This document shows, one piece after another, positions 3,825-9,105 of a stretch of 64,000 nt of DNA (its first letter is position 1; each line of letters begins with the position of its first letter). The notes beneath the pieces were generated by a model. It saw nothing but the letters and a program-made list of their open reading frames with translations, searched no databases and was not told where the DNA came from. The stretch comes from Candidatus Thalassarchaeum betae (GTDB lineage: Archaea > Thermoplasmatota > Poseidoniia > Poseidoniales > Thalassarchaeaceae): the NCBI GenBank assembly GCA_003193925.1, contig PSPG01000008.1:62001-126000 (forward strand), written 5' to 3'. The position numbers and the translations under genes are program-made.

Positions 3825-4802
3825 ATGCCCACGTTTCTTGGTCGGGGAGAGTGCGGCGGCCACGTCACCCTTCTGTTCACGGTGAGCGACCAGTCTGACG
3901 ACCCCGTGGAGCAGGGCAGCCTGGGTGCAGGGCTCTGCGTCGAAGACGGGGTCGAGGCGATTGCACGAGGCGAGGAAGGGGGTCCCGGACTCTCCGTCAG
4001 GTTCGTTGACGCTGAAGCCGACCCTACGCTATACGAGGATGTCCTCGGGCTGCTGGTCGAGGAAGTACCCGAGGTCGGCGATGTCTCCTGGGAGATCAAC
4101 GTGAGACTGGCTCTGCCAACCTCTCAGGGGTTCGGAATGTCTGGCTCAGGCGCCATAGCCGCGGCCATGGCTTTCCAGAGAGCCATGGGACTGCCGCACG
4201 AAGAGAGTCTCAGGCGCTGTTACTCGGTCGCGCACAGGGTCGAGCGAGCGCGCTCGACCGGGCTCGGTGATGTCACGGCCCTCGCGGCCGGTGGGGTCGA
4301 ACGCAGGCTCGTTGCTGGCGCGCCGTACCACGGCGCCCTTCTGGAGAATGGCCCTGGGCGCGCCGAGGGCTGGACCTGCAATACTCCAGTCGTCCTCGCT
4401 TGGCGCCCGGACGCTGGCAAACACACATCTGGCTACATCGATAATGCTCAGTGGAAGAAATCCATCAGCGAGGCTGGTGCCAAGCAGATGGAGAGACTCT
4501 CCCTGGGGGAATGGGACCAGAGCCGCTGGTTGGGGCTGATGGATGCGGCGCATGCCTTCGCTGAGGACAGCGGGCTGCTGAAAGACGCCTCGCGCACCGA
4601 GTTGCTTTCCACCGCCAGCGAGGTCATCGAAGTCAGCGGGATGAGGGATGAAGCGAGCGCTCTGCTATGCATGCTGGGAGAGAGCGTGGCGGTAGTTCCG
4701 ACCGATCCCGAAGATGAGGATTCAGGGCTCAGTGCGTTGGTTCCAGAGTTGGAGCAAGCCGGTCTGGAGTCGATCATGACCAGAGTCGGCGAACTCTCAT
4801 GA
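3825..4802 (+). CDS. Pantoate kinase (GHMP family)
   Basis: Phosphorylates pantoate in the archaeal CoA pathway, upstream of 4-phosphopantoate-beta-alanine ligase, which is also in this window (54305-55090). The GHMP phosphate-binding loop is visible near residues 94-112 (LPTSQGFGMSGSGAIAAAM). The next conserved helix and substrate region (RSTGLGDVTALAAGG) matches archaeal pantoate kinase rather than homoserine or mevalonate kinase. The gene lies 41 bases after rpoD and could be cotranscribed. Its stop directly abuts the stop of the convergent nuclease gene. Confidence 0.85.
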   Translation: MPTFLGRGECGGHVTLLFTVSDQSDDPVEQGSLGAGLCVEDGVEAIARGEEGGPGLSVRFVDAEADPTLYEDVLGLLVEEVPEVGDVSWEINVRLALPTSQGFGMSGSGAIAAAMAFQRAMGLPHEESLRRCYSVAHRVERARSTGLGDVTALAAGGVERRLVAGAPYHGALLENGPGRAEGWTCNTPVVLAWRPDAGKHTSGYIDNAQWKKSISEAGAKQMERLSLGEWDQSRWLGLMDAAHAFAEDSGLLKDASRTELLSTASEVIEVSGMRDEASALLCMLGESVAVVPTDPEDEDSGLSALVPELEQAGLESIMTRVGELS

Positions 4803-5891
4803 GCCGTATCTGGCATTCTCGTGGAAGTCTTTCAGAGGCTTTAGGTCCAACGGACTCGCGTCGAGCTGAATAGCCCCCTTGAGCTTCAGCCCGCCACAGA
4901 ATCCATGACGGTAGACTATGGCGCCCTGACCGTACTCGGCGACGTACCTGTTGATCTGCTTCTGGGTCTTCTTCTTGGGGAACTTGAGATCGGCACCAAA
5001 GAAGTGCTTGGCATCGATCCACGCACAAGGGATGCCGTTGATTCTCACGTAGTCCAGAAGGAGCAGGTCGGGCGTGATGATGGCTCTGCCCTCGCTCACC
5101 TTCTGCTCTGCCAGAAGATCCTCCTGACGACGGAACCTCACTCCGACGGAGGAGAAGTAATCGCACAGGACGTCCTCGAAGACCTCGGCGGCGTTCTGGG
5201 TCTCTGTCTGGTTCACCGAGCTCACCCTGTCTACTGACTCTGCGAGCTCGAACTGTTCGCGGTCGCGCTTGTTCAGTCTCGAGGGATTCTTGTTGAGCGT
5301 CTCCTTGATCCTATTCTTCGTCCATCCCCTCCCAGTAAGGACGGCTCGGAAGGTGTTGACGGGTGGTGCGTCAAAGCGCTTGGAGAGGGCGATGACGCTC
5401 TCGCCTGCGTTGTAACGCCGGCTGAGCTCGTTCGCTCGGCGCATCAGGCTAGAATGCGAGTAGACGCTCTTCTCCTGATTCAAGGCACTGCGCAGCGACA
5501 GGGCCTGCTCGATGGTTATCGGCAGGTCGTCTAGTTTGGAGGCGATCTCCTGGACCCTCTCCTCGGGAAGGAAGCCGAACTCCCCTGGTATGCATGCGAT
5601 TTTACCGGCCTTGCGTTGTACTTCCTTGGAGACCGGGTTGATCCGCCACCGGAGATCAATCCTCCGAGGGGGCGGGTCGATCTCCTTCGGGATACCCATC
5701 GGTCGGGGCTTAGCGGAGAAGCGAGCGAGCGCACGCTCGACCTCTTCGGATACAGTCGCCGTACTCGGCTCCTCGGGAGGACGGACGCCGCTCCCGGAGC
5801 GCCGGCGGCGTCGGCGGCGCCGTCGCTGCCGATTGCCACTCTTCTCCTCACTCAACGAGCCACCCCAGCCGAAGGAACCCCATGAACCCAC
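4797..5891 (-). CDS. CDIN1/C15orf41-type TPD-motif PD-(D/E)XK nuclease homologue
   Basis: Resembles human CDIN1, a Holliday-junction-resolvase-like nuclease family defined by a TPD motif. In the 364-residue version TPDLLLLDYV is near residue 273, followed by a WIDAK strand near 291-295 that corresponds to WIESK in the human protein. After that comes YGQGAIVYRHGFCGGL, matching GPGLVIYWYGFIQEL. An upstream helical region resembles the helix-turn-helix part of CDIN1. I chose a GTG at 5891 because the track start (6044) would overlap the upstream gene by over 130 bases. The N-terminus has a run of about nine arginines, perhaps for nucleic-acid contact. It is third in a leuS-DCC-nuclease minus-strand run. 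The family alignment is from memory. Confidence 0.72.
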   Translation of the reverse strand: MGSWGSFGWGGSLSEEKSGNRQRRRRRRRRRSGSGVRPPEEPSTATVSEEVERALARFSAKPRPMGIPKEIDPPPRRIDLRWRINPVSKEVQRKAGKIACIPGEFGFLPEERVQEIASKLDDLPITIEQALSLRSALNQEKSVYSHSSLMRRANELSRRYNAGESVIALSKRFDAPPVNTFRAVLTGRGWTKNRIKETLNKNPSRLNKRDREQFELAESVDRVSSVNQTETQNAAEVFEDVLCDYFSSVGVRFRRQEDLLAEQKVSEGRAIITPDLLLLDYVRINGIPCAWIDAKHFFGADLKFPKKKTQKQINRYVAEYGQGAIVYRHGFCGGLKLKGAIQLDASPLDLKPLKDFHENARYGS

Positions 5892-5908
5892 CGAATATGC
5901 AGGTAGAG

Positions 5909-6241
5909 TCAGCGCCCGCTCGCGTAGACGTCGTAGCACAGGTCTCTGATCGGTCCCGGAATCAGCCACATCGCTGCAGCGAGGAGCCACGGGAATCCCA
6001 TTCTGAGCGCGATTCGGGATACTGCGGCGCTCTTTGCATACCACTCCCCATCCTCGGTGATGATGAACACAGAATCCACCCCCATCAGCTTGGCCGGTCT
6101 GGAGTCCATCAGTGAACGGCCTTCCTCAGTCTGCTGGCCAAGCGTTCTGAGCCTCGCGCTGCGATTGCGTCGCTCGACGAAGCGAGCCCAGCGGCTGCAC
6201 TTACCACAGGCGTCGTCGTAGAGCACGGTGGCCTGCGTCAT
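5909..6241 (-). CDS. DCC family thiol-disulfide oxidoreductase-like protein (DUF393)
   Basis: Small DCC-family protein named for the N-terminal YDDACGKCSRWARFV motif, a CxxC-type site at the start of a thioredoxin-like fold. At 110 residues it has the usual family length. The C-terminal half has the typical hydrophobic helix (WLLAAAMWLIPGPIRDLCYDVYA). The molecular role of the family is poorly defined. It starts eight bases after the leuS stop and ends 17 bases before the proposed nuclease start, so the three genes probably form one transcript. Confidence 0.78.
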   Translation of the reverse strand: MTQATVLYDDACGKCSRWARFVERRNRSARLRTLGQQTEEGRSLMDSRPAKLMGVDSVFIITEDGEWYAKSAAVSRIALRMGFPWLLAAAMWLIPGPIRDLCYDVYASGR

Positions 6242-6249
6242 CGGCTCAC

Positions 6250-9105
6250 CTACAGGAAAGCGATGCCGGGCTCCAACGGGAACGCGACACGGGCCTTACC
6301 CGCCACATCCTCACCATCTCCTACCGAGTATGCCTCGACCGAGTCGACGTCCAGCGCGGCGGCGAGGAAGCCGGCGTTAGCAGCGAGGATCCCGGCTTCG
6401 TCGAGGCCGCTGGAGATCAGCGTCCTCTCGCCATCAGACCAAGTGTGAATGCGGCCGCGCTTCTTCTTGCTGCCTGTCGTCATGGCCATCCAAGTCTGGA
6501 AAATCTCGCCTCGCAATGCCTCATTCTTGAATATCTCGAGGGACTGCAGGTGCGCCTGTCCCTGAGCCTTGAAGTCGAAGCCTTCCGAGTCGAGTCGGAT
6601 CGCGTCTTGAGCGAGCTCGGCCTTCCATGCGACTGCAGTCTGGATGACGACCCGACTGATTTCACCCTCTGTGTGGCGCTCGGCTAGGCCGCGCAGGTTG
6701 CGCGCGCTGTCGATTACGTTGCGCAGGTAGGTCTCGCGAGCGAGGACAGCGGTGTCGCCTACGGACTCACCGGCGTCGGGCAACACCAGCGTAGCCAGCA
6801 GACCCTCGCCGCCAGTCATCTGCCAGAACTCCTCGGCTACATGGGGAGTCGCCGGAGAGAGCATGGGTATCCATCCCTTCAGGAAGGCACTGGCAGTGGC
6901 TCGGTCGCAACCTCCTCGATGCCGATACCAGTTCCAATCTGAGAGCATCTCGAAGTGGCTCACCATCACTCCCTCACGAAGGCTGACGTTGCCCATCGCC
7001 TCACGCCACGCGCGTTGATTAGCGCGCAGTCTAGCGTTCAGCCAGTCGTCCATAGGACCCGGCGAGTCGTCCATGGAGAGCGCCGAGTCGACGGCGTCGA
7101 TAATCACGTGCATCTGTCGATGGTTCGCCTCCAGAGCGCTGTCAGACCAGTCCATGCCCGCCTCAGGGTTGGCTCCGAACAGAATGAACAGACGAATCGT
7201 GTCGGCGCCGTAGCGTCCGAGCATATCCCCCGGGCTGATTGTGTTGCCAAGCGACTTGCCCATCTTGGCGGAGCGTGTGCCTAGAGGCTTGCCGCAGGTC
7301 GGGCAGTCACCGCCGAAGTTGTCGACGTGATACTCGGCGTTGCAGTCGGCGCAGAAGGGCGCGGGAGCGTTCAGCATCCCCTGGCAGATCAGTCGGCCGA
7401 AGGGCTCGCCGACCGCGTTCATCCCGGCGTCGCGGGTCGCCTTGGTGAAGAAGCGGGCGTAGAGGAGGTGCATGACAGCGTGCTCGATGCCGCCGATGTA
7501 CAGATCAACGCCGTCGTCCATCCAGTAGTCGACTGTCTCGCGGTCGAAGGGCGCGGCGTCGTTGCTCGCGTCACAGAAGCGCATGAAGTACCACGAGGAG
7601 TCGTAGAACGTGTCCATCGTGTCCGTCTCGCGCTTGGCAGCGCCTTCGCACGAGGGGCATGTGGTGTTGACGAAGGCATCGTGAGATGCCAGAGGGTTGC
7701 CGCTCTGCTCCTCGCTGAAGGTCACGTCGAGCGGTAACTCGACTGGCAAATCGGCCGCTGGCACGGGCACGATGCCGCAGGCCTCGCAGTGAATCATCGG
7801 AATCGGCGTGCCCCAGAAGCGCTGGCGGCTCAACAGCCAGTCCTTGAGCCGGTACTCGATCGTGCCGTAGCCTGAGCCGTGGCCCTCAAGCGCGGCTATC
7901 ACAGCATCCTTGGCCTCGTCGCCGGCCAACCCATCGAAGGCATCACGACCGGAGTTGACCATTGGGCCGTAGCCCTCGAAGGCCCCGCTGAGCGCGGCAT
8001 CTGGGTCGTCGCCGGCTCGCTCAAGCAGCACACGCCTGATCTCGATGTCGTACCTCTCGGCGAAGTCGTAGTCGCGCTGGTCGTGCCCCGGCACGGCCAT
8101 CACAGCGCCGGTGCCATAGGAGGCGACGACGAAGTTGCCGGCGTAGATGGGCACCTCCTCGCCGTTCAGCGGGTTGATCGCGTGGCGGCCGAGGAAGACG
8201 CCCTTCTTCTCCTTCAGCATGTTGATGCGCTCGAACTCGGACATGCGCGCGCACTCGTCGCGAAGTTTGCTCCAGTCAGCCTCCCACTCGGTTCCCGCGC
8301 ACAGCTCCTCGCACAGCGGGTGCTCGGGCGAGAGGGTGACGAAGGTCACTCCGAAGATGGTGTCAGGCCGGGTGGTGAAGGTGCCGATGACGGCCTCAGA
8401 GCCGGCCACCGGGAAGTCGATGTGGGCGCCGTGGGAGCGGCCGATCCAGTTGCGCTGCATCGCCTTGACGTTCTCCGGGAAGGCGATGTTGTCGAGTTCG
8501 TCGAGCAACTCGTCGGAGTACTCGGTCATGCGCAGAAACCACTGCGCCATGTCCCTCTGCACGACCTCGAGGCCGCAGCGCCAGCAGCGGTTGTTCTTGA
8601 CCTGCTCGTTGGCGAGCACGGTGTCGCAGTCCACGCACCAGTTGACCGGTGCCATCCTGCGCTCGACCAGCCCGCGCTCGTTGAGCATCAGGAACATTCG
8701 CTGGTTCCAGTGGTAGTAGTCGACATCCGAGGTCGCGAGGAAGCGCCGCCAGTCGTACGAGTAACCCATCCGCTCCTGGTCGGCGCGGATGCTGGCGATG
8801 TTGCGGTGAGTCACCGTGTGCGGGTGCCCGCCCTCCTTCTTCGCCGCGTTCTCGGCGGGCATCCCGAACGAGTCGTAGCCCATTGGGTAGAGCACGTTGC
8901 TCCCCATTAGCCGGTGGAAGCGCGCCATGGCGTCGCCGATCGAGTAGTTCCGTACATGACCCATGTGCATGCTTCCGGAGGGGTAGGGGAACATCTCGAG
9001 GCAGTAGAACTTCGGTTTGGAGGAGTCGACTTCGACTTCGAAGGCACCAGCATCCGCCCACGCCTTCTGCCAGCGGGCCTCTACCTCTTGCGCGTCGTAT
9101 GCCAT
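6250..9105 (-). CDS. leuS: Leucyl-tRNA synthetase, bacterial-type
   Basis: Charges tRNA-Leu with leucine. The class I HIGH signature reads HMGH at residues 47-50 (FPYPSGSMHMGHVRNYSIGD). Zinc-type cysteine pairs are present (CVDC/CWRC and CADC/CPTC), and the editing CP1 domain contains the TTRPDTIFG motif. The second signature is KMGKS near residue 615 instead of KMSKS. The whole layout, including FGMPAENAAKKEGGHP, follows the bacterial/organellar LeuRS rather than the archaeal/eukaryotic form. That suggests horizontal acquisition, though no tree could be run. Length is 951 residues, with a C-terminal anticodon-binding and terminal domain. Confidence 0.95.
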   Translation of the reverse strand: MAYDAQEVEARWQKAWADAGAFEVEVDSSKPKFYCLEMFPYPSGSMHMGHVRNYSIGDAMARFHRLMGSNVLYPMGYDSFGMPAENAAKKEGGHPHTVTHRNIASIRADQERMGYSYDWRRFLATSDVDYYHWNQRMFLMLNERGLVERRMAPVNWCVDCDTVLANEQVKNNRCWRCGLEVVQRDMAQWFLRMTEYSDELLDELDNIAFPENVKAMQRNWIGRSHGAHIDFPVAGSEAVIGTFTTRPDTIFGVTFVTLSPEHPLCEELCAGTEWEADWSKLRDECARMSEFERINMLKEKKGVFLGRHAINPLNGEEVPIYAGNFVVASYGTGAVMAVPGHDQRDYDFAERYDIEIRRVLLERAGDDPDAALSGAFEGYGPMVNSGRDAFDGLAGDEAKDAVIAALEGHGSGYGTIEYRLKDWLLSRQRFWGTPIPMIHCEACGIVPVPAADLPVELPLDVTFSEEQSGNPLASHDAFVNTTCPSCEGAAKRETDTMDTFYDSSWYFMRFCDASNDAAPFDRETVDYWMDDGVDLYIGGIEHAVMHLLYARFFTKATRDAGMNAVGEPFGRLICQGMLNAPAPFCADCNAEYHVDNFGGDCPTCGKPLGTRSAKMGKSLGNTISPGDMLGRYGADTIRLFILFGANPEAGMDWSDSALEANHRQMHVIIDAVDSALSMDDSPGPMDDWLNARLRANQRAWREAMGNVSLREGVMVSHFEMLSDWNWYRHRGGCDRATASAFLKGWIPMLSPATPHVAEEFWQMTGGEGLLATLVLPDAGESVGDTAVLARETYLRNVIDSARNLRGLAERHTEGEISRVVIQTAVAWKAELAQDAIRLDSEGFDFKAQGQAHLQSLEIFKNEALRGEIFQTWMAMTTGSKKKRGRIHTWSDGERTLISSGLDEAGILAANAGFLAAALDVDSVEAYSVGDGEDVAGKARVAFPLEPGIAFL

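Follow-up and report, generated by a model that had tools for sequence, protein, structure and literature searches.

The gene on the minus strand at positions 4797 to 5855 of the window, the whole 64,000-nucleotide stretch of Candidatus Thalassarchaeum betae that was analysed (GenBank assembly GCA_003193925.1, contig PSPG01000008.1), encodes a lineage-specific, strongly changed relative of human CDIN1. Its membership of the CDIN1/TPD family is a direct observation, whereas its catalysis and role are what we infer: with a probability of roughly 0.6, this diverged member is a metal-dependent PD-(D/E)XK phosphodiesterase engaged in housekeeping DNA processing or repair, and no stand-in for the Holliday-junction resolvase Hjc. 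CDIN1 is essential in mammals and is mutated in congenital dyserythropoietic anaemia. Since the presumed active site is kept in archaea without a reported Codanin-1, archaeal members can show whether the family cuts nucleic acids, and proteins of the Methanomassiliicoccales type, of Marine Group III or of Methanosarcina should serve that purpose better than those of Poseidoniales.

Gene, start codon and upstream element

The minus-strand open reading frame ending at 4797 is a genuine gene, with close relatives in Marine Group II genomes at 91 to 72% identity across most or all of the protein. Candidatus Thalassarchaeum is the best-named of them, which places the window in Thalassarchaeaceae (Poseidoniales, Marine Group II).

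4797..5855, minus strand: TPD/CDIN1-family gene, 352 amino acids, probable TTG start (PF14811 match and start-codon conservation in relatives)
5799..5825, minus strand: nine consecutive arginine codons (residues 11-19), N-terminal basic tail (codon read-out; basic tract in relatives)
5881..5892, minus strand: conserved 12-base element GGTGGGTTCATG upstream of the TPD gene, present once in this genome

The sequence-only reading had started the gene at a GTG at 5891, but the relatives point to an in-frame TTG at 5855, 36 nt inside that frame. In almost every Thalassarchaeaceae relative a start codon (TTG, once GTG) precedes SEE, SED or SDE, in several of them a stop lies one or two codons further upstream, and the segment in front of the TTG is one base out of register in the window compared with the relatives, so that translation probably begins at 5855. 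The arginine run, described earlier as about nine residues, is exactly nine in a row. Its codons are mixed (CGA, CGG and CGC), indicating that the tract is not a simple nucleotide repeat, and because a basic tract is kept at the same place across Thalassarchaeaceae, and in a weaker yet still basic form in Poseidoniaceae, it belongs to the protein and is no repeat accident.

The element GGTGGGTTCATG stands 27-28 nt in front of the TPD start in Thalassarchaeaceae (counted from its ATG to the TTG), with the same offset wherever positions were compared among same-genus genomes, and this spacing is kept even where the reading frame is broken. It is single-copy for each listed locus, in genome G000 and in 11 of the 12 same-genus genomes searched; a relaxed form with the same spacing could be read by eye in several Poseidoniaceae, and a scan of viral contigs returned scattered matches only. 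The ATG of the element was considered as the plain start in all members and was not retained, being in frame in most relatives and out of frame in the window; as a universal start it was ruled out by the in-frame stops that follow it in about eight loci. Either an operator or a strong ribosome-binding site accompanied by an upstream ATG could explain the element. That the TPD protein itself binds it, in DNA or transcript, as a dedicated site, which would make a self-controlling CDIN1-family enzyme, is a candidate explanation to which we attach very little weight.

Family membership, active site and divergence

Two domains were delimited in the protein.

5232..5462, minus strand: helical HTH-like region, residues 132-208, homologous to the canonical second helical domain (start of the hhalign match; confident part of both AF2 models)
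4878..5255, minus strand: TPD (PD-(D/E)XK-like) domain, residues 201-326 (PF14811 match)

PF14811, the Pfam TPD model of the CDIN1/C15orf41 family, matched 126 residues of the protein with E=1.5e-17, its 64.2 bits lying above the curated cut-off of 27, and hhalign of the Poseidoniales alignment against canonical archaeal TPD proteins gave E=3e-26 over 199 columns, spanning window residues 132-338. By canonical we mean the Methanomassiliicoccales-type families, Marine Group III and Methanosarcina acetivorans, the last on the basis of PF14811. The homology to CDIN1 claimed from the letters of the sequence is borne out by both matches; the novelty of an archaeal homologue is not, as euryarchaeal orthologues of C15orf41, with E about 1e-34 to the human protein, were published in 2020 in a study that reported Codanin-1 in eukaryotes only (PMC7092493).

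Human CDIN1 has been described as two predicted HTH domains followed by a PD-(D/E)XK domain, with D196 as an active-site residue (PMC7261414). Both the nuclease domain and the second helical, HTH-like one fall within the hhalign match, so that the coverage of the human helical domain, on which the sequence-only reading had made its claim depend, was found in part: the second helical domain is aligned, while the first is uncertain, lying outside the match and being placed by MAFFT at residues about 94-131, where conservation is little and the alignment loose. In the two AF2 models confidence was low outside the helical part (pLDDT about 30-40 in the nuclease domain, where the alpha-beta-beta-beta-alpha-beta core of PD-(D/E)XK proteins would lie), as their alignment was restricted to close relatives; Foldseek with these low-confidence models gave no meaningful match, and sequence searches for relatives of solved structure found none.

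The presumed active site can be located in the nuclease domain as follows.

5175..5177, minus strand: Glu227, presumed metal ligand, invariant in human, canonical, Marine Group III and Poseidoniales rows
5067..5069, minus strand: Asp263, presumed metal ligand, invariant, corresponding to human D196 (named in PMC7261414)
5007..5015, minus strand: Asp281-Ala282-Lys283, the (D/E)xK motif, with an E to D exchange specific to Poseidoniales

The TPD, WIDAK and YGQGAIVYRHGF stretches are present as first quoted, and in their line-up with human CDIN1 the columns do align, although the residues differ, the human protein having WIESK and VYWxG. The aspartate and lysine that had been singled out are both conserved. 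E227, D263, D281 and K283, the presumed catalytic residues, are invariant among the aligned Poseidoniales, and a joint alignment across human, canonical, Marine Group III and Poseidoniales sequences leaves E227, T261-P262-D263, W279, K283, G287, Q300, Y304 and several glycines unchanged. In human numbering, E166, D196 and K216 do not vary in any of the 48 aligned rows, and an acid stands at position 214 throughout. The Poseidoniales variant is now defined by its fixed marker changes, namely WIESK to WIDAK (E to D and S to A), D to A after FG, and VYWxG to VYRHG (W to R).

In the proposed mechanism, E227, D263 and D281 would hold metal and K283 would assist catalysis, nucleic acid would be gripped by the arginine tail together with the HTH-like helices, and the protein would have a housekeeping role in the processing or repair of DNA. 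The main rival reading is a catalytically silent scaffold, in which the nuclease fold is kept for binding and does not cut, as may hold for human CDIN1, an obligate partner of Codanin-1. In assays with many DNA and RNA substrates, no nuclease activity was detected for human CDIN1, whether by itself or together with Codanin-1 fragments (PMC7261414), and in work on the CDAN1-CDIN1-ASF1 complex it was found to be stabilised by CDAN1 and mainly bound to it (PMC11911400). The negative assays, the low-confidence models of the nuclease domain and the lack of a solved relative in the sequence searches count against the phosphodiesterase. Nevertheless, the 48-row invariance of the three residues and the constant acid at position 214 speak against a pseudo-nuclease, and since archaea have no reported Codanin-1 (PMC7092493), a constraint from scaffolding Codanin-1 cannot explain why the active site is conserved. 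We consider the scaffold unlikely for the archaeal protein, and prefer the phosphodiesterase.

The Poseidoniales proteins have nonetheless moved far from the rest of the family. PF14811 scores are 130-168 bits for canonical archaeal proteins outside Poseidoniales, 64-82 bits within Poseidoniales and about 64-67 bits for the window protein. An HMM of the canonical family matched human CDIN1 over nearly the whole protein at 142 bits, whereas the Poseidoniales HMM reached 30 bits in the nuclease core only, and identity to human CDIN1 is 20% for the window protein and 27-28% for the canonical archaeal ones. The human sequence of these comparisons is no database record; its length of 281 and its residues 18, 94, 178, 196, 223, 230 and 237 agree with the published numbering, and it was therefore taken as reliable. 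In a maximum-likelihood tree, to be read with long-branch caveats, the Poseidoniales stem measures 4.6 changes per site, and Marine Group III, which belongs to the same class as Poseidoniales, groups with the canonical and human sequences.

Given this long branch and these low scores, the window protein is, as far as sequence comparison can tell, a derived variant and a poor proxy for the ancestor. The suggestion that it could show the ancestral function does not survive its long private branch, its 66.9 bits against the canonical 130-168 and its lower identity to human CDIN1; canonical members (Methanomassiliicoccales, Marine Group III) are clearly nearer to the human protein. The Poseidoniales protein may be an orthologue that has evolved fast, or else an old paralogue by which the canonical gene was displaced. 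Canonical proteins have in common with it the helical HTH-like part followed by the TPD domain and the conserved E, TPD, K, Q, Y and G, but they are about 250-260 residues long, without a basic tail, carry WIESK...FGD and VYWxG in place of WIDAK...FGA and VYRHG, and have a short loop where Poseidoniales have an LLxEQ...GR insertion. Human CDIN1, of the same Pfam family, shares E166, D196 and K216 with the window protein.

Changes of human Y94 and L178 in CDA-I disrupt Codanin-1 binding (PMC13370696). Archaea, too, have mostly hydrophobic or aromatic residues at these two positions, which are aromatic or aliphatic in canonical archaea (mostly Phe; Ile/Val/Leu); the window protein has Ala at position 94. 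Because this character is kept in archaea without a reported Codanin-1, it suggests that the residues changed in CDA-I are old fold or surface residues.

Gene neighbourhood, distribution and possible role

Three neighbouring genes surround the TPD gene in the window.

5909..6241, minus strand: DCC1-like thiol-disulfide oxidoreductase (PF04134), upstream neighbour at a 53-nt gap, possibly co-transcribed
6250..9105, minus strand: leuS, leucyl-tRNA synthetase (bacterial-type TIGR00396 839 bits, TIGR00395 252 bits)
3825..4802, plus strand: GHMP kinase similar to the pantoate kinase of archaea, convergent with the TPD gene at a 6-nt overlap

The leuS-DCC operon put forward earlier is real in its gene order (all three genes on one strand, 8 and 53 nt apart), but adjacency of the DCC gene is limited to Thalassarchaeaceae, in many of which it is the immediate TPD neighbour. 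In each of the 49 Poseidoniales loci in which leuS was seen, it is located upstream of TPD and shares its strand, and the convergent genes downstream of TPD in Poseidoniales are pantoate-kinase-like and RpoD/ribosomal genes. A leuS-DCC-TPD operon is locally plausible and carries little functional information. The leuS product is far better matched by the bacterial than by the archaeal leucyl-tRNA synthetase model, which suggests an old transfer from bacteria.

These neighbours (leuS, ribosomal protein and RNA polymerase genes, pantoate kinase) give no pointer to DNA repair, which counts against the nuclease reading, and the preserved position beside leuS and the S13-S4-S11-RpoD cluster throughout Poseidoniales could, together with the basic tail, indicate an RNA-directed or ribosome-linked nuclease whose arginine tail binds rRNA or mRNA. 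However, this synteny is not common to the canonical TPD genes of other orders, basic tails bind DNA equally well, and the convergent arrangement means that TPD and the ribosomal cluster are not one operon, so that we hold an RNA-directed role to be doubtful. Among canonical members the neighbours vary by order, with a pyridine-nucleotide-disulfide oxidoreductase in family f17, a Cas4-like nuclease in f30, f37 and f38, and an M24 peptidase in Marine Group III; as they differ in this way, function cannot be read from them and the attempt was dropped. In Methanomassiliicoccales-type genomes (L095 and L097-L102), TPD is followed by a putative membrane-protein gene with a Cas4/PDDEXK_1-like nuclease domain (for example L102:8485-9474, plus strand). 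That a nuclease gene of this kind often adjoins TPD in the Methanomassiliicoccales-type relatives is a weak hint at DNA processing.

The gene is core in Poseidoniales (142/146 genomes), and in a set of 61 Methanomassiliicoccales-type genomes (relatives of G278) each of the 48 that are of high quality carries it. An origin from a mobile element was rejected, since searches of phage, plasmid and viral-contig collections for TPD gave no match. One Poseidoniaceae genome encodes an additional TPD-domain protein that has diverged even further and whose N-terminus is acidic (TPDLLLKIP...HWIDAKKQF; L014:1474-2562, minus strand), and a second TPD match is also found in another genome (G090:C82:22400-22798). 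Contig PBEM01000001.1 (L039), labelled as a Chloroflexi bacterium, carries the Poseidoniales TPD neighbourhood, so that its label is probably wrong.

The Holliday-junction resolvase question

A likeness of human CDIN1 to Hjc has been described (Babbs 2013, cited in PMC7261414), and the window protein has the PD-(D/E)XK-type order E, D, (E/D)xK in common with Hjc (PF01870), which, unlike the TPD protein, is without an HTH part. The idea put to the test was that TPD is a Holliday-junction resolvase able to replace Hjc, and Hef/XPF as well. A survey of 243 Thermoplasmatota genomes for TPD, Hjc and XPF/Hef (PF02732) showed that TPD was present in 17 of the 18 non-Poseidoniales genomes without Hjc and ERCC4, the sole exception being an 87% complete Marine Group III genome; this single TPD-less genome compares with a permutation mean of 11.5, kinship being ignored. 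A custom sensitive Hjc profile confirmed the absence of Hjc in the Hjc-less genomes. A search with PF01870 found no Hjc in Methanosarcina acetivorans.

On the other side, those 17 genomes stem from few clades, and RusA was found in each of the 21 genomes tested from the groups that lack Hjc and carry TPD, while RuvC is absent from these genomes. Poseidoniales keep Hjc (63/64), and the window's own genome, from which RusA is absent, has Hjc (L158) as well as TPD; the two genes coexist in Poseidoniales. The resemblance to Hjc resolvases that had been proposed for checking did not appear at the profile level: hhalign gave non-significant probabilities of 1.5% and 0.2%, and Hjc was not among the Pfam matches. 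As RusA accounts for most of the Hjc loss, a TPD resolvase is not needed to explain it; TPD as a substitute for Hjc or Hef was rejected, a resolvase function of this kind being in our judgement highly improbable, and the idea of the CDIN1 family as the missing Holliday resolvase of Hjc-less archaea is thereby removed.

According to one review, all archaea possess Hjc (PMC7776575), and Hjc has been reported as enriched in one of two Methanomassiliicoccales clades only (PMC7883539). Across the 243 Thermoplasmatota genomes, RusA occurs in 23/36 Hjc-less and 3/207 Hjc-bearing ones (Fisher p=5e-20, kinship ignored). A RusA-type resolvase seems to replace the archaeal Hjc, and RusA without Hjc was observed in Marine Group III, in Methanomassiliicoccales-type families f30, f37 and f38, and in other clades (e.g. 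L161, L162, L163, L164 and L165).
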